A stretch of 64,000 nt of DNA. Origin: a bacterium (GTDB lineage Bacteria; Auribacterota; UBA3054). Each line of letters begins with the position of its first letter. Position 1 is the first letter of the stretch. The position numbers and the translations under genes were made by a program. The notes beneath the pieces are model-generated. The model was not told where the DNA came from, made no database searches, and worked only from the letters and a program-made list of their open reading frames with translations. Below are positions 15,474 to 63,366 of this stretch, in pieces. The stretch spans positions 248,001-312,000 of the forward strand of contig JAFYXV010000007.1 in the NCBI GenBank assembly GCA_017557885.1, in the 5' to 3' direction.

Positions 15474-17315
15474 ATGCGCGGAAAAATTTTCTTCCTGGCC
15501 TTCCTGGTCTGCGGCGTGACTTTAGCGGCTGAACTTTGGTCTGACACTTTTGAATTTTCCGGAGCGGCTGTCGATCCCTCTGAAACAACAGTCATTTATC
15601 CCGCGGGCGGTTACCAGAGCAATTCTGCCACTCCCTTGCCTTACAACAGCGGCTGGGCCAAGGGCAACCCTGAATCCATTGAAATTTTTTATATAAACGA
15701 AGAAGATGATTCCTTGAGAGGCGTGATCTACTATCAGGAATCTGCTTCGCCATCCCAGGGCGTCGCGTATTGGGACTATATTGGAACGGATCCGGCCGAT
15801 ATCCCCAGGAACGACACTTATACCATCTTTGAATCCGTTCTGAGCGACTATGAAGAAATCCTGATGTGTCGTTCCGTCACGATCGTTCCGGAACCGGCTG
15901 CCGCTTTGCTTTTGGTTTTAGCGGGAGCTTTTTTCATGAGAAAAAGAATAAAAGGCCTTTTGGTCGGCCTTTTGGCGGTCACGGCCGTAAGCGCTTTCTC
16001 AGCGGAAGTAACTTCCGTCAGCTGCTACCAGGCTCTGCCCTTCAACAACAAGGTCGTCATCAACTACACGCTTTCCAAAACGACTGAAAAGGTCACGCCT
16101 GTCTTTACGGTTTCTTTTGCCGGCAAATATGATGATGGCGAACCCTTCGACCTTGAAGACAACGGCACCATTACCGGCGACGGCGCGGCGGGCATCGTGC
16201 TGGGGGAAGGCAGCAAGCAAGCCGTTTGGACTCCCGGAGGCAGTCTCGCCGAAGTGTCCACTTCCACAATGCAGGTGAAAGTGGCGGCGGTGGATGTCAC
16301 CGGGGAGGCAACCTATTTGAAACTGGATCTCTCCAGCTATAAAATGACTAACAGCGCTCTCGGTCCTGAAAATCCCAATTACGATCCCGAAGATCCTGAA
16401 AGCGGCAGGTTCTTGTCCATAAATTGCAAGACTTCCGAAATATGGTTCAGAAGAGTCGAACCGGGCACTTTCACTATGGGAAGCGATGTGAATGAAGTTG
16501 GCAGACCAACGGACAAAAGTGTTATAGATTATGAGACCGGAGGAAGGCACATTGTCAACAGTGAAACCGAGCATTCAGTGACCATTACCAAGGCTTTTTA
16601 CCTTGCTGTTTTTGAAACAACGCAGGACCAGTACGAGACCATTGTCTGCGAGAATCCTTCAAGATGGCGTTCCCATCTTGCCGAGGGCGAAACGCAGGAG
16701 GCGAGGCCTGTTGATTATGTTTCATATTCTGATATCAGAGGAGTAAACGAGGGAGCTACATGGCCCGAACAAACCGATTACCGGGTGGACGACTACACTT
16801 TCTTCGGAATAATTCGTGAGTCAACCGGCGCCGGCATTATTTTTGATCTGCCCACCGAGGCTCAGTGGGAAATGGCCTGCCGCGATAAAGGCGACGGAAG
16901 CTATGTGGGCAGCAGCAGATGGAGTGATGATTCCGTTTTCACCATGACCGCAGATGCCAAGAATACGGACGATAACCTTGAAAATGTTGCCTGGTACGCA
17001 AACAACACTAAAGTATCTTCTACTTATCCTTCCCACGAGGTCGGCCGTAAAAAACCCAACGGTATCGGTCTTTATGATATGCTCGGCAATGCCATGGAAT
17101 GGTGCCTGGACTGGTCGAAAACGTATATTGTGCCGTATGATTTGGATCCGGTCGGCCCGCCCTATGATGAAAGCAACGAAGGCCAGAGCCGCAGGAAACG
17201 CGGAGGTTCCGCCCAACAAAATGCCGCTAATTGCCGTATAGCTCAGAGGTCAAACGGAAGGCCTAATGACAAAAATCAAAACTGCGGTTTCCGCATTGCC
17301 ATTCAGGCAAGATAA
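15474..17315 (+). CDS. Two-part secreted protein: PEP-CTERM module fused to signal peptide plus SUMF1 (FGE-sulfatase-like) domain
   Basis: The 613-residue protein has an unusual order. Residues 1-19 are a signal peptide and 20-137 a small module (ELWSDTFEFSGAAVD). Residues 138-158 form a PEP-CTERM-type sorting signal (VPEPAAALLLVLAGAFFMRK). Without a break, residues 155-177 (MRKRIKGLLVGLLAVTAVSA) look like a second signal peptide. An Ig-like domain of about 100 residues follows (TSVSCYQALPFNNKVVINYT). Residues 320-613 are a SUMF1/EgtB-type domain (VEPGTFTMGSD, PTEAQWEMACR, GNAMEWCLDW, RGGS, CGFRIA). I could not align a paired Cys active site like that of true formylglycine-generating enzymes, so a structural or binding role is possible. 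The start lacks a Shine-Dalgarno sequence (CCGAAAAAATTATG). A homologous arrangement occurs at 60130. Confidence 0.8.
   Translation: MRGKIFFLAFLVCGVTLAAELWSDTFEFSGAAVDPSETTVIYPAGGYQSNSATPLPYNSGWAKGNPESIEIFYINEEDDSLRGVIYYQESASPSQGVAYWDYIGTDPADIPRNDTYTIFESVLSDYEEILMCRSVTIVPEPAAALLLVLAGAFFMRKRIKGLLVGLLAVTAVSAFSAEVTSVSCYQALPFNNKVVINYTLSKTTEKVTPVFTVSFAGKYDDGEPFDLEDNGTITGDGAAGIVLGEGSKQAVWTPGGSLAEVSTSTMQVKVAAVDVTGEATYLKLDLSSYKMTNSALGPENPNYDPEDPESGRFLSINCKTSEIWFRRVEPGTFTMGSDVNEVGRPTDKSVIDYETGGRHIVNSETEHSVTITKAFYLAVFETTQDQYETIVCENPSRWRSHLAEGETQEARPVDYVSYSDIRGVNEGATWPEQTDYRVDDYTFFGIIRESTGAGIIFDLPTEAQWEMACRDKGDGSYVGSSRWSDDSVFTMTADAKNTDDNLENVAWYANNTKVSSTYPSHEVGRKKPNGIGLYDMLGNAMEWCLDWSKTYIVPYDLDPVGPPYDESNEGQSRRKRGGSAQQNAANCRIAQRSNGRPNDKNQNCGFRIAIQAR
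15923..15938 (+). promoter_or_regulatory. Candidate internal ribosome binding site and start codon (Met155 of the PEP-CTERM/SUMF1 gene)
   Basis: GGGAG at 15923-15927 is 8 bases before ATG 15936-15938. This Met begins MRKRIKGLLVGLLAVTAVSA, a complete signal peptide. Initiation here would give a normal secreted SUMF1 protein of 459 residues. The role is inferred; only the spacing and sequence are observed. Confidence 0.4.
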
Positions 17316-21156: not shown

Positions 21157-22107
21157 ATGGAAAAGGAAAAAAAGAAGAAAAAACGCAGCTTCATGAGCAG
21201 ACATCCGAGGATCCGCTCCGCGGCCTACGGGATGTACGCTCTCCTTTTCTGCGCCCTGGGCATCCTGATGTTCCCCCTGGGCCTTATTCCCAGAGCCTGG
21301 ACCTACAAGCTGGGACGTTTCATTGGGCTGCATATCACTTATTTCGTCATCAGGCGCAAGTGCTTTTTGAATTTCTTTTGGGCCTACGGGGACAGGATGA
21401 ACGAGAAGAGGGCGCGCGCACTGACGAAAAAAGTGGCGGTGAACCTTACTTACAGCGTCCTGGACTGCTTTTATCTCTGGGTCTTCAAATGGCGTTACAG
21501 AAAGTACGATCCGGTGGAGGAGTGGAGCGACTGGTCGGTTGTCAGCAAAAGCATGGAGGCGGGCCACGGCGTCGTCGTGGCCACGGCGCACTATCATTGC
21601 TTCGAGGTCATGCCGGTGCATTTCTGCTATACGCGCCAGGGCTTCGACGGAGGCGTGATCGCCCGCACCTTCCCGTCGCCGCTGGCCGTCAGGATCTACA
21701 CCTGGCTCAGGAAGCGCTACAACATCCTTTCCTTTTACAGCGACGCGAAAAGCATCATCAGGACTTTGAAGAGCGGAAAAGTGGTGGGAGTTCTTCCCGA
21801 TCTTTACGCCAAGAGGAAATACAAAGTGCCGACCACCTTCTACGGCAAGCCGACGACCACCTTCGACATTCATTTCAGGGTGGCGGCTCTTTGCGACTGC
21901 CCGGTGGTGCCGGCTTTTTTGATGCGCAAGAAAAGAACCCCCTGGAAATACGGCTTGCTTTTTTACGATCCGATCGTTCTTCCCAAGAAGCCCAGCGAGG
22001 AGCTGGTGGACCAGTGCGTGCAGAAGCTTTCCCTGGTCTTCGAATATCACATGCGCCGTTATCCCACGGGCTGGATCTGGTTCCACAACAAATGGCGGAT
22101 CTTTTAA
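21157..22107 (+). CDS. LpxL/HtrB-family lipid A acyltransferase-like protein
   Basis: Membrane-bound acyltransferase of 316 residues. The N terminus is strongly basic (EKEKKKKKR), followed by one transmembrane helix near residues 28-45. The catalytic HX4E motif is HYHCFE (His145, Glu150), matching the LpxL/LpxM His/Glu pair. VVGVLPDLYAKR and the C-terminal HMRRYPTGWIWFHNKW (YPxxWxWxHxRW-like) are family signatures. It likely adds a secondary acyl chain to lipid A or a related lipid. Confidence 0.85.
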   Translation: MEKEKKKKKRSFMSRHPRIRSAAYGMYALLFCALGILMFPLGLIPRAWTYKLGRFIGLHITYFVIRRKCFLNFFWAYGDRMNEKRARALTKKVAVNLTYSVLDCFYLWVFKWRYRKYDPVEEWSDWSVVSKSMEAGHGVVVATAHYHCFEVMPVHFCYTRQGFDGGVIARTFPSPLAVRIYTWLRKRYNILSFYSDAKSIIRTLKSGKVVGVLPDLYAKRKYKVPTTFYGKPTTTFDIHFRVAALCDCPVVPAFLMRKKRTPWKYGLLFYDPIVLPKKPSEELVDQCVQKLSLVFEYHMRRYPTGWIWFHNKWRIF

Positions 22108-22119
22108 CCTTCTTTACGG

Positions 22120-22125
22120 TATAAT
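22120..22125 (+). promoter_or_regulatory. -10 element upstream of manC
   Basis: A perfect TATAAT lies in the short AT-rich gap before manC. No convincing -35 hexamer is seen at 16-18 bases upstream. Confidence 0.35.
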
Positions 22126-22145
22126 TAATTAAGGATAAAATCTTT

Positions 22146-23231
22146 ATGGCGGAAACAAAGAACAGTTTGGTCGCGGTCTGCGTCATGGCAGGCGGAATAG
22201 GGGAGCGCTTCTGGCCTCTCTCCAGGATCATGCGTCCCAAACAGCTCCTTGCCATTACCGGAGAGGAGACCATGCTCAGGAAGACGGTCTCCCGCCATCA
22301 GGCCATCGCCTCCCCGGAAAACATTTACATCGTGACCACCGGCGCCCAGGCGGATCTGATCAGGAAGGAGATCAAGGAACTGCCCTTCGGGAACGTGATC
22401 CCCGAGCCCTGCGGCCGCAACACCGCCCCCTGCGTGGCGCTGGGAGCCGCGCTGCTCTACAAAAAAGATCCCGGGAGCGTCATGGTGGTGGTCTCCTCCG
22501 ACCATTACATCCCCGACGTCCAGGATTATGTGGAGACGATCAGGGACGCCGTCGCTCTGGCCAGGCAGGAGAACGCCCTGGTGACCGTGGGCGTCGTTCC
22601 CCGTTACCCTGAAACGGGCTACGGCTACATCAAGGGCGAAACTGAGATCGCTTATCCGGGCGGCACCAAAGCCTGGCGGGTATCCCATTTTCTGGAAAAA
22701 CCGCCGCTGGAAGTGGCCGAGAAACTTTACAAGGCCCCCGGCTATTTCTGGAACGCCGGCATGTTCGTTTTCCAGACCAGGGATATCCTGAAAGCGTTCG
22801 AGGAATTCATGCCGGAATCCTGGAAAGATCTGGAAGATATCATCGCGAAGGCCGGAACGGCGGGGGAGAGGGAAGCCATAGAGAATTACTACCGCAGCGT
22901 CCCCAAGATCTCCATCGACAACGCGGTCATGGAGAAAGCCTCCAACGTGGCGGTCTGCGCCGCTTCCTTCAAATGGAACGACGTGGGCAGCTGGACCTCC
23001 GCCTCCCAGCATTGGCCGGAGGATGAGAAATCCAACCGCCTGAGAGGGGAGGTGAAGCTTCTGGAGACCAGCGACTGCATTGTCGGCAACTACGCCGAAG
23101 GCTTGGTGGGCGTAATCGGTTTGAAAGACGTGGTCGTCATAAGGACCGCGGACGCGACGCTGGTCTGCGCCAGGGACAAAGTTCAGGACGTCAAGAAAAT
23201 TTTGGGAGACCTCGACGAGAAGTACCGCTGA
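22146..23231 (+). CDS. manC: Mannose-1-phosphate guanylyltransferase
   Basis: Makes GDP-mannose for surface glycans. The nucleotidyltransferase motif GGIGERFWPLSRIMRPKQLL is near residue 17. PEPCGRNTAP, SSDHYIPD, FLEKPPLEVAEKL and YFWNAGMFVF follow in the expected order. Length is 361 residues, so it is the monofunctional form without the PMI domain. The stop overlaps the ruvX start by one base. Confidence 0.95.
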   Translation: MAETKNSLVAVCVMAGGIGERFWPLSRIMRPKQLLAITGEETMLRKTVSRHQAIASPENIYIVTTGAQADLIRKEIKELPFGNVIPEPCGRNTAPCVALGAALLYKKDPGSVMVVVSSDHYIPDVQDYVETIRDAVALARQENALVTVGVVPRYPETGYGYIKGETEIAYPGGTKAWRVSHFLEKPPLEVAEKLYKAPGYFWNAGMFVFQTRDILKAFEEFMPESWKDLEDIIAKAGTAGEREAIENYYRSVPKISIDNAVMEKASNVAVCAASFKWNDVGSWTSASQHWPEDEKSNRLRGEVKLLETSDCIVGNYAEGLVGVIGLKDVVVIRTADATLVCARDKVQDVKKILGDLDEKYR

Positions 23232-23701
23232 TGCGCATTTTGGCAGTTGACATAGGCACGGTGAGAACAGGGCTCGCTATCTCGGACCCCTTGGGTCTGA
23301 CGGCCCAGCCTTTGCCAACGGTCCAGGGCGGCAGCCCGAAGGTCAACGCCAGGATCATCCTGGACCTTGTTTTAAAATACGCAACGGAACCGGACGAAAA
23401 GCGCCGGGTGGGAACGGTCCTCTTGGGGAACCCCGTCCTGCTGAACGGAAAGCCCGGCGAAAAGAGCAAAGATTCGGAGGAATGCGCCAGGCTCCTGAGG
23501 GAGTATCTTAAGCAGAAGCTTGATTATCCCGTGGAGGTCCTGCTGAGGGACGAGCGCCTCACTTCCGTGGCGGCGGAGCGCTTCATGATCCAGGGCGACG
23601 CCCGCAGGGACCGCAGGAAGGAAAAGAAAGACCAGGTGGCGGCTCAGCTTATATTGGAGAATTATCTTGAGAGTAAAAGATATGAAAAGCAGAATTGCTA
23701 A
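23231..23701 (+). CDS. ruvX: RuvX/YqgF-family RNase H-fold nuclease
   Basis: Putative Holliday junction resolvase also implicated in 16S rRNA 5'-end maturation. The RNase H-fold start ILAVDIGTVRTGLAISDP carries the first catalytic Asp. VLLRDERLTSVAAERFM and the DQVAAQLILENYL end carry the other acidic residues. Length is 156 residues. Its 3' end overlaps the start of a lipoprotein gene. Confidence 0.93.
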   Translation: MRILAVDIGTVRTGLAISDPLGLTAQPLPTVQGGSPKVNARIILDLVLKYATEPDEKRRVGTVLLGNPVLLNGKPGEKSKDSEECARLLREYLKQKLDYPVEVLLRDERLTSVAAERFMIQGDARRDRRKEKKDQVAAQLILENYLESKRYEKQNC

Positions 23702-24179
23702 ACTGTCCGCGCTTTTTGTATCCCTGCTGCTGGGAGGGTGCATGCTGCCGAGAATGTTCGTGGCGGCCTTCATTCCTTTCCAGCGTTTCATGATCTGGGG
23801 CGCGGCCATGGCCGCCCGCTACGGGGCGCCTCTGGTCATGCTCATGGTGGACGCCTCGCCCTCCGCCGCGCCTTCCTTCGGCCCGGCGGACGAGCTGCGG
23901 GAGCCGTATTATTACGAAGAGAAGATCGCTCCTGAAATGCTCGGGAGGGAGAAACTGGCGAAGGTTTACATTATCGATTACCGGCAAACGGAGGAGAGCG
24001 ATTACGCCGATTTCCTGAGGGAAGCCGCAGGACGCGGGCAGAGCGTCAGCCTGGCGCCGCTGGGAACGGAAGAGGAGGCTCTGGAAACGGAAAGCTTGCT
24101 TGCGGCGATCGGCGTGGAAACGGAACGGGGGTTTCCGAAAAAGGATGCGAAAAACGAAGGACCAGAAGGTGAGTTATGA
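23682..24179 (+). CDS. Hypothetical lipoprotein
   Basis: The ATG at 23682 gives a lipoprotein signal peptide with lipobox LLLGGC. A TTG 15 bases earlier is possible but less likely. The 165-residue product is Pro/Glu-rich, with no recognised domain. The start overlaps ruvX by 20 bases, and the stop overlaps the next ATG (ATGA). Function is unknown; translational coupling suggests it acts with the following SNase-like protein. Confidence 0.6.
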   Translation: MKSRIAKLSALFVSLLLGGCMLPRMFVAAFIPFQRFMIWGAAMAARYGAPLVMLMVDASPSAAPSFGPADELREPYYYEEKIAPEMLGREKLAKVYIIDYRQTEESDYADFLREAAGRGQSVSLAPLGTEEEALETESLLAAIGVETERGFPKKDAKNEGPEGEL

Positions 24180-25198
24180 GATTTTTCTTCTTCCTAGTGT
24201 TTTTGGCCGTCGTCGGCATGTTCGTCTTGTACAAGTATCAGGAAAGCCACCCTTCCAAAGGGCTTTTCAATTATGATTTCAACGAAAAGACCCAGGAGCA
24301 GGAAAAGAAACCTTCCTATTACCGCGTGCTGAACGTCTTCAGCGGAACGGATTTCATGCTTCTGCGGGACAACGTGGAAACGCAGTATTTCAGCCTGGTC
24401 GACCTGGACTGCCCTTACCCGGATCCCAAAAGGAACGATCCCAAGATCTGGGACGACACGAAAAGCCGGGAAGAGCTTGCCAAGATAGGCCAGGAAGCTT
24501 TGGATTTCTCAAAAGCCCAGCTTCAGGCCATTGGCGCTTTCAGGGCTTCCGCCAGAAAGAAAGGCGAAATGAAAGGCCTGCTTTATCTTCAGGGCGACAT
24601 CTCGCTGACAAACGGCTCCTCCCTGGCAAGGGAGCTGATCCTCAGGGGCTTGGCCAGCGGCAAAAAGGACGCTTTGGTAAGTTATCAGAGCTACGAGGAA
24701 CAGGCCAGGAAGGAGGAGAAGGGCCTTTGGCGGCACAGGCTGCCTTTGGAGAGCAGGATCAAGATAGACGCCTTTATCGGCGAGAAAGTTTTGGATTTTT
24801 CCACCCACAACCAGAAGGCTTCCATGAGCAAGGAAATTTTGGAATCCGTGGCCAGTGAGGAAAAAGCCGTGGTGGTCAGTTTGAATGTCGATATCGCCCC
24901 GCCTATCACCAGGGAGTATGAATTCGAGGTCAAATGCAGTTTCATGATGGAGGAGATCGCCGGGATCTCCGACAGCACTCAGGCGGACGCCAGATCGTTC
25001 AGGGAGATCGAGCGCAAAGACGAGCGCTTTTTAGTGACCGATCCCCAGACCAATCTTACCATCCGTTCCTCCAGTTACGAAATGAGCAACATCCGGAGAG
25101 GCGGGAGACAATTCAGGCAGGGCTTTTTCTGCAGTTCCTGCACCTGCACCATCTTGCTGGACGGCGTGGAGATAAAAAAGGAGAACAAGATATTTTAG
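24176..25198 (+). CDS. Membrane-anchored SNase-like (thermonuclease fold) protein, probably catalytically degenerate
   Basis: A single N-terminal helix (residues 3-18) anchors a periplasmic domain. Residues 45-185 follow the staphylococcal nuclease pattern: VLNVFSGTDFMLLRDN, then the VDLDCPYPDP region, then GSSLARELILRGLAS and YEEQARKEEKGLWRH. The Arg and Glu of the normal active site (RLxGIDxPE) are replaced in FSLVDLDCPYP, so nuclease activity is doubtful. The C-terminal 140 residues are unrecognised and contain a late Cys pair (CSSCTC). Length is 340 residues. Confidence 0.65.
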   Translation: MRFFFFLVFLAVVGMFVLYKYQESHPSKGLFNYDFNEKTQEQEKKPSYYRVLNVFSGTDFMLLRDNVETQYFSLVDLDCPYPDPKRNDPKIWDDTKSREELAKIGQEALDFSKAQLQAIGAFRASARKKGEMKGLLYLQGDISLTNGSSLARELILRGLASGKKDALVSYQSYEEQARKEEKGLWRHRLPLESRIKIDAFIGEKVLDFSTHNQKASMSKEILESVASEEKAVVVSLNVDIAPPITREYEFEVKCSFMMEEIAGISDSTQADARSFREIERKDERFLVTDPQTNLTIRSSSYEMSNIRRGGRQFRQGFFCSSCTCTILLDGVEIKKENKIF

Positions 25199-25316
25199 GG
25201 ATCTTACGGCTGGTTGCAATTCAGCAAAAAACGGATATTTCCTTTTGACATTCCGAAAGCAAGATTGGTTTTGATAGAATAGCAAAGTGAAAATTTTAAG
25301 ATGAAACGGTGCGTCT

Positions 25317-28300
25317 ATGAGAAGAGCTTTTGACATTTCATTCGCCAGGCCGAGGGGCGTAGCCCTTCTGGCCGTCTTAACTGTTCTGACGGTCCTGAGT
25401 TTGCTGGCCGGCAGTTTTGCTGTTTCCATCTCCATCGATGAAAGCGCGTCCCGCCAGACCCAGGCCGAACTGGCTTTGAGGATGCTTTACCAAAGCGGCG
25501 CCGCTCATGTGAAATCCTCCCTTATGGCCGCCGCCCTCTCCGACACCGGAAGCCCCGGCGAAATGCTGTCCCAGACCAAGGCTCTGCAGCCGGCCACGAA
25601 AGACGGCTTCGGCCCCTGGGTCTATGTTAAGAACGAAAACGGCGACGCCATCGGCCGCTACCGCGTGAAGGTGGAGGACGAGGCCGCGAAACTGAACATC
25701 AACAAAGCTTACCTGATCGAAAAATCCAAAGGCTCCGGCTGGGATACCGGCGAGATCTCCATAACGGAAGCCCTGGGCGTTTCGCCCGTGGCCGCCAAGA
25801 CCATCCTGAACTATAAATACGGCCAGGACGGCGTTCCCGGCGACCGCGGCGACGACGACCGCAACAACGCGCTTCTGATGACGGACGGTCTGGACAACAA
25901 CGCCAACGGCATCATCGACGAATATGACGAAGGCGTGAACGACCCCGGAGAATATCTGGCTTCGCGCCCCAGGGGCGACGACAGAGCCTTCACGACTCTG
26001 AGGGAAGTCATGCCCTTCCTTTTGCAGTCCGACAATTTCAAGAGGCTCAGCGAAGCGAGCCAGGAATACGCCGTCAGGGAACTCTACCGCAGGGCCACGC
26101 TGCATTCCGTGGACATGCCCGGATCTAAGACGCTGCCCACCGACGCCCCCTCCGAGATCAACAGCATCACCGGCGCCGAGCTGCGCCGCCGCCTGAACAC
26201 CATGCGCCGTCCCGTGGAAGGCCAGTCCCGCGCCAGAAACCAGCTGGCGGCCAACATGATCGACTACCGCGACGAGAACCACGTCATGACGACCTTGGGC
26301 AGCGACATTTACGGCGCCGAGGCCATTTGTTTCAACGAAGTTTTGGCCAACGAAGACTCCATGACCTTCTGGGTGAGGGACTCCTCGGCCACCGACGGTC
26401 TGGTGAGAGACTGGGTGCACGCCAACTATTGGCGCGACCAGTACGCCTCCAAGGACAACACCCGCCTTATGCACTGCCCGCTGTGGTACTACTGCTGCAT
26501 AACCGACAAGGTCATCAACCACAAGCTGTTCTGGCACCACTCCGTGAGGATGAACAGCACCTGGAAACTCATAGTCTCGGCCGGCAACACCTCCGAAGGC
26601 CACATAGACGTCCACTCCGGCACCTTCACCATGCCGGACGGCCCCGGCGAAGCCCAGTCCTCCGCCAACCCGCGTTTCCTTAACTGCGACGGCGACGCCT
26701 GGGGCGGATCCAACCCCAGCCAAAGCTACCGCGACACCTACATGAAGCTGATCAAAATGATGGAGCGCCGCGGCAAGACCCAGTCCGGACACATGAAGTT
26801 CGAGGACGACATGTTCAAGAACATGTATGCCGTCTTCTGGGGCTGGCGCGGCAGCAAGCAGCTCGGACAGTTCAAGGTGACCAGCTCCACCGGTCACAAG
26901 ATCAAGATCAACAACAACGAAGTCAACTCCGGCAAGCTGCTCTCCTCCCTCTGCACCGAGAACGAGATCACCAACGGCGCTTCTCTGGCCGTGACTTTCC
27001 TGGCCTGGTCCCAGGGCATCTCAGCCATTCTCCCCAGAGTCAACTGGTATCATTCCGTGCGCCGCCCCGAGGGCGTCGGACGCTATTACAAAGTTCTTGT
27101 GACAAACGACCCGGTGGACTCCTTCAAGGGCTACAACTGCCGCACCCTTGGCGTGACTGGCAAGCCCTCCAGCAACAAGCTTATCCTGGAAGAGGAGAAG
27201 GCCTGGGAATACAAGGACGGCAAGCCCCAGAAGATCGACTCCACGGGCTGGATGGACGTCATTGTGAAATCCAGCGAAAAGGTCAAGCACGATACCAAGC
27301 AATACCAGTCCCTGGGCTACATCAGGCTCATAGCGCCCGAGGTGGTGGAGATGTATAACGCCTCCGAGACCGCGGTCTCCCTGGCCAACTGGAAAGTCGT
27401 CTGCAACACCGGTACCATGGCCACCGAGATCGGCAACATCAAAAGAACGACTTATTACGACAAGAGGTCCGGCGGCCGCATCATCGACGACAACCCCGCG
27501 GTGATGCCGAGAAGCCACTTCTATCTCGTCAACGACGCCGAGCTGTTCGACATGCGCTACGGCAACGGCGACCAGCTCTGGGGTTCCGCCGCCACGGAAG
27601 AGATCCCGGTCTTCGAGATGGACAGCAAACACTGGGGCATCTCCTTCAAGCTAAAAAGAGTTGACTCCGACCAGACAGACTTTTATTTCTACATCGACTC
27701 CGGACACACGGTCCTCGACAAGAAGCTTTTCCAGGGCGAGTCCATAAGGCTGGTCTATGAAGGCGAGGAAAACGACCCCCGCTCCTGGCACGGCAGGATC
27801 TTCCCCCTTATGTGGTGGGAAGATGAAAAAGGCCGCCGCATCAGGGTCTGGAACGAATACGCCCGCTACACCGTCAACAAGCCTCCCGTCAGGAACTGCG
27901 AAGTCATGTTCCTCGGTCTTCCGGCCCGCGGCGGCATCGTCTCCCTGACGCTGAAAAACGAATACAACCAGGTGACGGCCCGTACCGTGGAATACGGCTC
28001 CGTGGAAGTTGAGGAAAAAGGCTACAGCACGGAAAAAGAGGACCCCACCCATTACAAGTGGGTGAAAAGGGCCACGCCCACCATCGGCGGCACCGAGAAC
28101 CTAGCCTTGAACACCGCCATGCGCGGCAAGAAAGACAGGCCCACCTGGATCAAGAACGGTCCCTTCGGCAGCGTGGCTGAGATGGGCAATGTCAGGACCG
28201 CAAAGGACTTTGAGAACCTTGGCACCGCCGGGGGAGAAGCTTCCGGCAAACTCAACATCGCGAACCTTTCCGACTATTTCTGCGTCGGCTCCCTCAGGCT

Positions 28301-60129: not shown

Positions 60130-63100
60130 ATGAAAAGACTAGGTTCCTTTGCTCTTCTGGCGTTTTTCGCGCTTTCGGCGCTTGCGTCCGGCAAGTGGTC
60201 CGAAGGTTTTGCTTTCGACGGCTCCGTCATTGACGAGGAGGCGGTCGTGACTTTGCTGCCGACGGACGAATTGTCCTGCCGCAGCGAGGCCGCTCCCTGG
60301 GACGCGACTTACCTTTCCATCGCGGTCGTCGGCGCCGTTGACACCAACGTTATGGCGGCTATCTATGAGAACGAATCTCCTGACGGATCGGAGACGACCT
60401 GCAAATGGGATTACACCGATCCTATGTATGAGGATTTCACCGCGGATCAGGAATACGTTTTAATAAAGACCATCATGGCGGGCGAAGATTATGTGACGTT
60501 CGGCCGCCTGATAGAGATCCTTCCCGAACCTTCTTTTCTTTTCTTAATGCTTTTTGGGGGCCTTCTGCTTATGCGTCGCAAAATTAAAAGCCTGCTCGTC
60601 GTTCTTTTGGTGTTTGCAGTGGCGGATGCTTACGCCGAGGGTTCTGTGACGGCCATAAAGTGCCAGCAGGACTGGCCCTTCAGCGGAAAAGTCATCATCA
60701 ATTACACTGTGCAGTCCGAGACTGAAGATCCCAGGTTCGACGTCAAGTTCTACGGTTCCGTGGACGACGGCGATTCGGTCTTTGAGCTTACGGAGAAGGG
60801 GACGCTTGAAAAGGACGGCGCCAACGGTACCCTGAAGGGAACGGGCAGTTTCGTCACGATCTGGAATCCCGATGCCTCCTTGGGAGAAGTTAAGATCGAC
60901 AACATGATCATTAAAGTTGACGTTGAGGAAAAAGAGAAGAAGGCTATGCGCACCAATTGCGACTGCTTGGATCCCGCCGGATATCTGGGCGAATTAATCA
61001 ACAATAACATCGAAGTCTGGCAGACCAAAGCCTACGGCGACAATCCCAATATTATAGAAGCCATCGCCAAGGCCAACGGCGTTTTGACGCTGGATTCGCT
61101 TTTCGGCCGCGACTGGTTCGGCGTGGACACCTATTACGACATCAACCTGAAGCCCCTCAACAATACGAACGTTTTGAGCTTCACCATGATCAAGACTGGG
61201 CTGCCTTCCGGCACCTTCGACCGTGATATTCTTTATGGCAACGATCCTAAGGCTGACAGTGACTGGACGGGCGCCACAGACCTTCTTGTCGCTATCGACG
61301 CGGGGCAGATGACGGAATCCTTCCGCCTGAGAGTGGCTTTCGAAGAGCAGGTCGTGGGCAGGGAATCCTTCGAACTGAAGAACGGCGCCGCCGTAAAATA
61401 TTATCACGCGGTGGACGGCGTTATGACTTCCGCAGTCGTTTCCGCCGACGGTTCCGGCTACGTGACGCTGCCCGCCGGCTTGAAGGGCTATCTCGCTCTG
61501 CCTCTCAATACGACGACTTTCCAGCGCTACTGGTCCGAGAACGCCAACAATCAGATGGACCTTGGAAAAGTAGGTCAGTTCCAGCTCAGTTTGAGAGGCA
61601 GCAACAACGACCTTAACAATACGCTTTACCTCAGCAGGTTCCTGGTCGCCGGGCCGTCTTTTGCCGAGACTACGCCCGCCGGCCTTCCTTTCGCGTCTGT
61701 CAAATCTATCTGGACCTACGAGGGTCTCTGGCCCAAGAGCGCTTACTCCAGCAGCATCGTCATTTGGTACGGCGAGTTCGTAGGAAAGCTTTTGACCGGC
61801 ATGGCTTTCAACTACAGAGTGGCCCAGAGGGAAGACCTTAGGGAAGCGGCCTTCACTATAATCAACGCGCTGGCTGACGCCCAGGGCGAAGACGGCTACC
61901 TTGGCGTCTTCAGAGACAGCGCCAGATTTGCCATCGACGCCAACAACTGGGACCTCTGGGACCACTATCACGCCATCGTGGGCCTTCTGGAATGGTACAA
62001 GATGACCGGCAACGAAACGGCCTTCAACGTCGCCAAGAAAGCCATCGACCTTATCTACGACACCTTCCATGAAAGAAGCTATCTGGTCGGCGGCGGCTTC
62101 GAGACCAACCGGGGCATCGCCCACGGCTACGCCCTGATGTACCAGGTCACCAAGGACAAGAAATACTTGGACGAAGCGGAGCGCATTATCAAAGAGGACT
62201 GCCAGGAAGACAACGGCTGGTACGAATGCGCCAAGAACGGCAGGGATTTCTACACCTCCAACTGCAACCGCTGGGAGATACTTCACATGATCATGACGCT
62301 GGGCATCCTCTATGAGGAAACGCACAACGCGGAGTATCTCCTGGTATTGAAGAACGTCTATGAATCGATCCTGAAGACCGACATCCACAACACCGGCGGC
62401 TTCACCACCAACGAAGGCGCCCAGGGCGACCCGTACCTGAACGGCGTTATAGAGACCTGCTGCACCATCGCCTGGACGGCTTTCGTGACGGAGTACTACA
62501 GGCAATCACCCAGCGTCGCTCTCATCGACGAGATCGAGCGCTCTTACTTCAACGGCGTATTGGGAAGCCTCCTGGACGACTGCCACTACTGCACCTACAA
62601 CACGCCTATGAACACCGCCAACGGCATGAACGGCTACGACGGCAAGCGCGTGCCCTCCCAGAAGGACATCTCCTTCCAATATAACAACGGTTCGCCTGAT
62701 ATGAACTGCTGCCAGGCCAACATCGCCAGAGGCCTCGGCCAGGTCGCCGAATGGGCCTCCGTCACCGACGGCGAGAGACTGTATCTCAACTACTACGGCC
62801 CCTGCTTCCTCAGGTCAAGCTTCAACGGCGCCGAGGTCATTCTGAAGCAGGAGACCTCTTATCCCGCCGATGGCCAGGTCAGCCTGACTGTCATCTACGA
62901 ATCCGAGGGCGTACTTCCGCTTAGCCTCCGCGTCCCCAAATGGGCGGAAGGCTCCACGGCGACCTTGCCTGACGGCTCCACGGTTACCCTCACTCCGGGA
63001 ACCTACCTCGACGTTGACTGCCGCAACGAAGACACCATCATTATTGTCTTCAACATGCCCTGGACATTTTTGAAGGGCAAAAAAGACCAGGCCGGCTATT

Positions 63101-63366
63101 ACTCCGTGTTCCGCGGCCCCATCCTCTTCGCCATAGAGGGCGGCGACAGCTCCAAGGAGCTCAGCTATTCCGCCATTACGGAAGCTAGTAAGAGCGAGCG
63201 CACGGACAAAAAGATCCACATCAACTTTGATGTGGAGACGGAAAGCGGAACGGTCCAGCTTGTGGACTTCGCCAGCGCCGGCAAATACAACGGCGCCACG
63301 ACGCCCGCCGCCTACAGGTCCTGGCTCAAGGTGAAGGACGTTCCCAGCTCAACAAAGGCTGAATAA
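60130..63366 (+). CDS. Two-part secreted protein: PEP-CTERM module fused to signal peptide plus GH127-like enzyme
   Basis: 1078 residues. Order: signal peptide 1-19; small module 20-130, like that at 15474 (GKWSEGFAFDGSVID); PEP-CTERM-type signal 131-151 (LPEPSFLFLMLFGGLLLM, then RRK). A second signal peptide follows at 148-169 (MRRKIKSLLVVLLVFAVADA), then an Ig-like domain near 170-265 and a beta-rich region to about 540. The GH127 helical barrel starts near WYGEFVGKLLTGMAFNYR. Key residues of beta-L-arabinofuranosidases are present: Glu775 and Cys777 in IETCCTIAW, and Cys860-Cys861 in NCCQANIARG, the expected Zn/nucleophile set. It probably trims arabinose-containing plant glycans. AAGGA precedes the start. 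Confidence 0.82.
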   Translation: MKRLGSFALLAFFALSALASGKWSEGFAFDGSVIDEEAVVTLLPTDELSCRSEAAPWDATYLSIAVVGAVDTNVMAAIYENESPDGSETTCKWDYTDPMYEDFTADQEYVLIKTIMAGEDYVTFGRLIEILPEPSFLFLMLFGGLLLMRRKIKSLLVVLLVFAVADAYAEGSVTAIKCQQDWPFSGKVIINYTVQSETEDPRFDVKFYGSVDDGDSVFELTEKGTLEKDGANGTLKGTGSFVTIWNPDASLGEVKIDNMIIKVDVEEKEKKAMRTNCDCLDPAGYLGELINNNIEVWQTKAYGDNPNIIEAIAKANGVLTLDSLFGRDWFGVDTYYDINLKPLNNTNVLSFTMIKTGLPSGTFDRDILYGNDPKADSDWTGATDLLVAIDAGQMTESFRLRVAFEEQVVGRESFELKNGAAVKYYHAVDGVMTSAVVSADGSGYVTLPAGLKGYLALPLNTTTFQRYWSENANNQMDLGKVGQFQLSLRGSNNDLNNTLYLSRFLVAGPSFAETTPAGLPFASVKSIWTYEGLWPKSAYSSSIVIWYGEFVGKLLTGMAFNYRVAQREDLREAAFTIINALADAQGEDGYLGVFRDSARFAIDANNWDLWDHYHAIVGLLEWYKMTGNETAFNVAKKAIDLIYDTFHERSYLVGGGFETNRGIAHGYALMYQVTKDKKYLDEAERIIKEDCQEDNGWYECAKNGRDFYTSNCNRWEILHMIMTLGILYEETHNAEYLLVLKNVYESILKTDIHNTGGFTTNEGAQGDPYLNGVIETCCTIAWTAFVTEYYRQSPSVALIDEIERSYFNGVLGSLLDDCHYCTYNTPMNTANGMNGYDGKRVPSQKDISFQYNNGSPDMNCCQANIARGLGQVAEWASVTDGERLYLNYYGPCFLRSSFNGAEVILKQETSYPADGQVSLTVIYESEGVLPLSLRVPKWAEGSTATLPDGSTVTLTPGTYLDVDCRNEDTIIIVFNMPWTFLKGKKDQAGYYSVFRGPILFAIEGGDSSKELSYSAITEASKSERTDKKIHINFDVETESGTVQLVDFASAGKYNGATTPAAYRSWLKVKDVPSSTKAE
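60556..60573 (+). promoter_or_regulatory. Candidate internal ribosome binding site and start codon (Met148 of the GH127 gene)
   Basis: GGGGG (60556-60560) is 10 bases before ATG 60571-60573. This Met begins MRRKIKSLLVVLLVFAVADA, a full signal peptide. The Shine-Dalgarno match is weaker than in the 15474 gene. Confidence 0.3.

Follow-up and report, generated by a model that had tools for sequence, protein, structure and literature searches.

An internal PEP-CTERM signal that runs into a second signal peptide probably marks precursors of two exported proteins in a genus of rumen bacteria

Haft et al. (2006, PMC1569441) found PEP-CTERM signals close to the C terminus in virtually all cases and suspected that the few with long tails do not function, since these are more variable. 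One gene in the stretch of DNA that we analysed, hereafter the window (64,000 nucleotides, positions 248,001 to 312,000 of contig JAFYXV010000007.1, from a bacterium of the Auribacterota), carries such a signal in the middle of a long open reading frame. Does this gene make one protein or two, and if two, do they arise by cleavage of a precursor or by a second start of translation? The 613-residue protein is made of an N-terminal signal peptide (SP1), domain A, VPEPAAALLLVLAGAFFMRKRIK, a second hydrophobic stretch ending in AVSAFSA, domain B, and a SUMF1 domain, in this order (Table 1). VPEPAAALLLVLAGAFFMRK and MRKRIKGLLVGLLAVTAVSAFSA adjoin in the single reading frame.

The initial annotation had described the junction as the usual C terminus of an exosortase substrate that continues directly into a second signal peptide (SP2). 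Our analysis confirms this description. The PEP-CTERM signal is complete (the PEP motif, a 14-residue hydrophobic stretch, and RKR) and runs in frame into SP2, which ends in Ala. The profile TIGR02595 (NCBIfam PEP_CTERM, cut-off of 16 bits) matches residues 138-158 with 16.3 bits in the whole protein, 19.8 bits in its first 165 residues, and 22.1 bits in the genome scan. As in other PEP-CTERM substrates, there is an N-terminal signal peptide, read from the sequence at residues 1-19. Yet 455 residues follow the PEP-CTERM match, and we therefore class the protein not as an ordinary PEP-CTERM protein but merely as the bearer of the same signal at an internal position. Judged by its motifs, SP2 has the features of a substrate of Sec and signal peptidase I, i.e., a basic n-region, a hydrophobic core, and small residues at -3 and -1; it is internal in this protein and N-terminal in split homologues. 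The AlphaFold model of the whole protein was poor (pLDDT of 39.6). A model of the module built with 17 sequences (pLDDT of 70.5) contains two beta-sandwich domains and a helix after PEP, and its comparison with solved structures returned only generic Ig/FnIII-like matches.

Table 1. Features of the fused gene and of the second fused copy, in positions of the window.
Feature	Position	Strand	Remarks
Whole fused open reading frame, 613 residues	15474..17315	+	SP1, domain A, internal PEP-CTERM, SP2, domain B, SUMF1; full-length orthologue (L095) at 92%
N-terminal signal peptide SP1, residues 1-19	15474..15530	+	Putative cleavage after VTLAA, judged by eye from the sequence
Domain A, beta-sandwich (Ig/FnIII-like), without Pfam match	15531..15884	+	Profile search and predicted structure
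PEP motif, residues 139-141	15888..15896	+	Invariant in 93/93 fused copies; TIGR02595 match
14-residue hydrophobic stretch of the PEP-CTERM signal, residues 142-155	15897..15938	+	Length of 14-16 in 93/93
GGGAG and ATG (Met155), candidate internal ribosome site	15923..15938	+	Not conserved in the family
Second, internal signal peptide SP2, residues 155-177	15936..16004	+	Predicted signal-peptidase site after A177 (or A174)
Basic loop RKRIK, common to the PEP-CTERM signal and SP2	15939..15953	+	At least 3/8 residues basic in 93/93
Domain B, beta-sandwich, without Pfam match	16005..16343	+	Also at the head of separate SUMF1 genes, which have a signal peptide of their own
SUMF1/FGE-like domain (PF03781)	16455..17300	+	Profile match
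Second fused copy, GH127-type domain in place of SUMF1	60130..63366	+	PEP-CTERM match at 60523-60582
Internal signal peptide MRRKIKSLLVVLLVFAVADAYA of the second copy	60571..60636	+	Sequence

The search of the bacterium's own genome with the 613-residue protein retrieved other relatives, of full or nearly full length, in which the parts are fused in the same way. In total, 13 genes of this genome have an internal PEP-CTERM signal (12 from the PEP-CTERM scan and one, L028, found by homology). They all align as one homologous module, in which SP1, domain A, PEP and its transmembrane stretch, the basic loop, SP2, and domain B are followed by a C-terminal domain X. The part after SP2 thus bears differing C-terminal domains: SUMF1 in ten genes, Cthe_2159 in two (L027 and L028), and a GH127-type domain in one. 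The latter gene is the second copy of the window; its C-terminal part is beta-L-arabinofuranosidase-like. The genome has about 43 C-terminal PEP-CTERM matches (0-8 residues after the match) and 12 with more than 400 residues after it. Internal and terminal signals score alike (medians of 17.45 and 17.6 bits, Mann-Whitney p=0.72). Some of the ordinary PEP-CTERM genes form a tandem cluster with near-identical tails (L029, G000 C7:214000-227000).

The fused module was present in all eight genomes of the genus that we examined, in roughly ten stop-free copies each, which gave 93 distinct fused copies from eight separate assemblies. The named records of the genus are metagenome-assembled genomes (MAGs) from the rumen, omasum, and reticulum. 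Given the 13 genes of one genome and the 93 distinct copies over the eight, the arrangement is beyond chance. The module was not matched at 1e-20 in seven other genomes of the order. Outside the genus, we found no strong match among 44 genomes of the phylum, with a single weak one in G011 (8.7e-10).

The genus also encodes the two halves in separate genes. We found 14 operon-like pairs in which a PEP-CTERM gene for domain A precedes a gene for domain B and SUMF1 at a distance of -4 to +30 nt. The first gene stops right after the PEP motif, the transmembrane stretch, and the basic residues, whereas the second opens with its own signal peptide. When split and fused forms were aligned together, the gene boundary of the former coincided with the basic loop of the latter. 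Hence, other genes of the genus encode the two halves as separate chains. The trees of domain B and of domains A and B together imply two to three changes between fused and separate forms. A single fused clade was not rejected (AU test, p=0.43), so that the data allow for one event or for several, in either direction.

Such separate-gene versions among relatives could suggest that an assembly or base-calling error joined two genes in our contig, and the initial annotation had indeed raised the possibility that the parts are separate in related genomes and that the fusion stems from read errors. We reject this explanation, to which we attach practically no weight. The frame is free of stop codons in all 93 fused copies from the separate assemblies, and an orthologue from the isolate RGIG8200 (L095) is 92% identical over the full length of the protein. 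In this orthologue pair the dN/dS is 0.20 overall, with purifying selection spanning both halves of the frame.

At the junction, PEP is kept in all aligned fused copies (93/93), the hydrophobic stretch up to the first basic residue has 14-16 residues in every one of them, and at least three of the eight residues of the loop are always basic. The hydrophobic columns adjoining the motif vary freely. At the end of SP2, the predicted -1 position is occupied by Ala in 92 of the 93 copies (90 in the alignment column, plus the two orthologues, in which the aligner had placed a gap; only L133 lacks it). The -3 residue is mostly A, V, L, G, S, or T, and the commonest residues at +1 are D and E. The orthologue pair has 0 nonsynonymous changes from PEP through the first transmembrane stretch to RKRIKG, and many changes in the core of SP2, where hydrophobicity is retained. 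A constant motif followed by a core that drifts yet remains hydrophobic is the pattern expected of a sorting signal and then a signal peptide. Common ancestry could explain part of the conservation of PEP, although thinning at 85% identity leaves 47 fused lineages and PEP is found in all of them.

Both enzymes that could act on these motifs are encoded in the genome. There is one signal peptidase I and one exosortase (PF09721, E 9.8e-37, 691 residues). The latter has the motifs PCSGL, NSLRI, and FHEYPG, which presumably hold the catalytic Cys, Arg, and His. The exosortase gene (L063:6843-8918, reverse strand) seems to combine an exosortase with a C-terminal half that is EpsI-like. By eye, its neighbours are genes for a YbbR-like protein and for orotidine-phosphate decarboxylase, and it is not part of an obvious polysaccharide locus.

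The best reading of these data, which we hold with moderate confidence, is that the gene encodes a secretory precursor of two products, cut by signal peptidase and by exosortase. In this rumen genus, one translated chain would probably be cut into two separate exported proteins. The architecture, its conservation, the split counterparts, and the presence of both enzymes are observed; the two cuts, their order, the topology, and the fates of the products we infer. SP1 would thread domain A through the Sec channel, until the hydrophobic stretch of the PEP-CTERM signal halts in the membrane with the RKR loop on the inside. This loop would have a double role, anchoring the PEP-CTERM signal on the cytoplasmic side and providing the n-region of SP2, which would set off export a second time. 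Signal peptidase I would cut behind the final Ala of SP2 and free domain B with its SUMF1 or other X domain. Exosortase would cut at the internal PEP and sort domain A to the surface, like the ordinary PEP-CTERM proteins of the genome, leaving a two-helix hairpin as a remnant in the membrane. For this, the enzyme would have to accept a signal with a second membrane segment downstream. The fusion may ensure that the two products are made in equal amounts and at the same site.

The chain might instead be cut by signal peptidase alone. Domain B and SUMF1 would then be released, domain A would remain anchored by the two-helix hairpin, and the PEP motif would not be used for cleavage. The near-constant Ala at -1 and the composition of SP2, which is that of a cleavable signal peptide, fit this possibility as well, but it leaves an invariant PEP beside residues that drift freely, internal signals that score like terminal ones, and split A genes that end as ordinary exosortase substrates. 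We regard it as unlikely. Still less probable, in our view, is a single intact membrane protein in which neither site is cut, with domain A and the B-X part both outside and a helical hairpin between them. The frame is certainly open throughout, and the AlphaFold models place, with low to moderate confidence, a helix or hydrophobic segments between two beta domains. Yet both cleavage motifs are conserved, the hydrophobic stretches have lengths typical of sorting signals and signal peptides, and it is clear from the split pairs that each part can function as a chain of its own. None of the motif residues would be required in a plain membrane hairpin, and their conservation thus counts in favour of cleavage.

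The initial annotation had proposed that one gene may yield two secreted proteins, either by cleavage of a precursor or by internal initiation at Met155. The former has good, if indirect, support from the motifs kept in 92 or 93 of the 93 copies and from the split pairs; the latter is not supported as the mechanism. The sequence at Met155 is as had been reported, with an ATG at 15936 and GGGAG at 15923-15927, 8 nt upstream, and both are kept in the 92% orthologue. The second copy of the window also has an ATG at its junction. Among the 93 copies, however, these are the only three genes (that at 15474-17315, L095, and the second copy of the window) with an ATG within -2 to +1 codons of where the basic loop begins, and any of ATG, GTG, or TTG is found there in only 14. 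A Shine-Dalgarno-like motif precedes 60 of the 313 internal in-frame ATGs of the window at a similar distance, i.e., a background of 19%, and synonymous changes around the site occur at an unremarkable rate (rank 123 of the 585 windows compared). With an ATG in just three copies, internal initiation cannot be the mechanism shared by the family, and we consider it very improbable as the source of a second protein from the same mRNA. Initiation at Met155 could add some product in the gene at 15474-17315 alone.

In the gene studied here, PF03781 matches residues 328-609 (E 4e-27 for the whole protein), which gives the second product the SUMF1/FGE fold that it shares with the variable protein 1 of Treponema denticola and with formylglycine-generating enzymes (FGE). 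The former is the nearest solved structure (2y3c, E 8e-23), ahead of human FGE (1.8e-11). In the alignment to the human SUMF1 entry 2aft, unlike in FGE, Cys is found at only one of the two positions that we take to be the active-site cysteines. With one of them missing, catalysis is unlikely, and the domain is probably a binding domain. The T. denticola protein is a surface protein noted for its diversification. We looked for a diversity-generating retroelement tied to the SUMF1 domains and rejected the idea, as the genome gave no match to the reverse transcriptase profile RVT_1. There are dozens of SUMF1 copies in the genome. Some are in tandem, with up to four domains in a frame of 1768 residues that has B-like domains in between and no internal signal peptides (L009:11551-16854, G000 C3, about 22050-27350); tandem SUMF1 domains are also found in L013, L015, L019, and L021.

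More generally, the data tilt us slightly towards the idea that this lineage uses polyproteins in which an exosortase signal and a signal peptide are merged at the junction. Two membrane proteases would split each of them into a beta domain sorted to the surface and a separate exported protein, either an enzyme or lectin-like, and the lineage would have re-used this expression device repeatedly and in many copies. If the two-product reading is true, automatic annotation treats two mature proteins as one in about a dozen genes of each genome of the genus. Our literature search found no paper on bacterial PEP-CTERM polyproteins.

The family resembles the known PEP-CTERM/exosortase (EpsH) substrates in having a signal peptide, PEP, a hydrophobic stretch of about 14 residues, a basic cluster, an exosortase in the genome, and many terminal examples. 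It differs from them in that the signal is internal and followed by several hundred residues. The long-tailed cases described by Haft et al. were more variable, and here the opposite is observed, with an internal motif that never changes. Annotation and searches treat PEP-CTERM signals as C-terminal tags. The existence of a family of many copies, in which an invariant signal lies inside the protein and is fused to a second signal peptide, argues that bacterial exosortases can work on internal signals. Precursors with an internal signal peptide have a bacterial precedent in FbcH, the cytochrome b/c1 precursor of Bradyrhizobium, which signal peptidase splits in two at this peptide. Unlike the genes described here, FbcH is not known to carry a sorting signal at its junction or to undergo a second, exosortase-type cut.

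The closest experimental precedent is HVO_0405 of Haloferax volcanii. In PMC7157517 and PMC9263693, its central signal is reported, by experiment, to be cut by the archaeosortase ArtA (Abdul Halim 2017), and PMC7157517 describes it as a fusion of two formerly separate genes. Like our genes, it is a two-gene fusion with a central tripartite signal (motif, hydrophobic stretch, and basic residues), which an enzyme with an exosortase-like role cuts, as we propose for the bacterial signal. HVO_0405 is archaeal, has a PGF motif, and is a single strain-specific fusion, for which these papers mention no second signal peptide after the signal; ours is a bacterial family, sampled in 93 copies, whose basic tail is at the same time part of a signal peptide. 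As HVO_0405 does for archaeosortase, this family offers an assay with two products for a class of enzymes whose cleavage chemistry is poorly known in bacteria.
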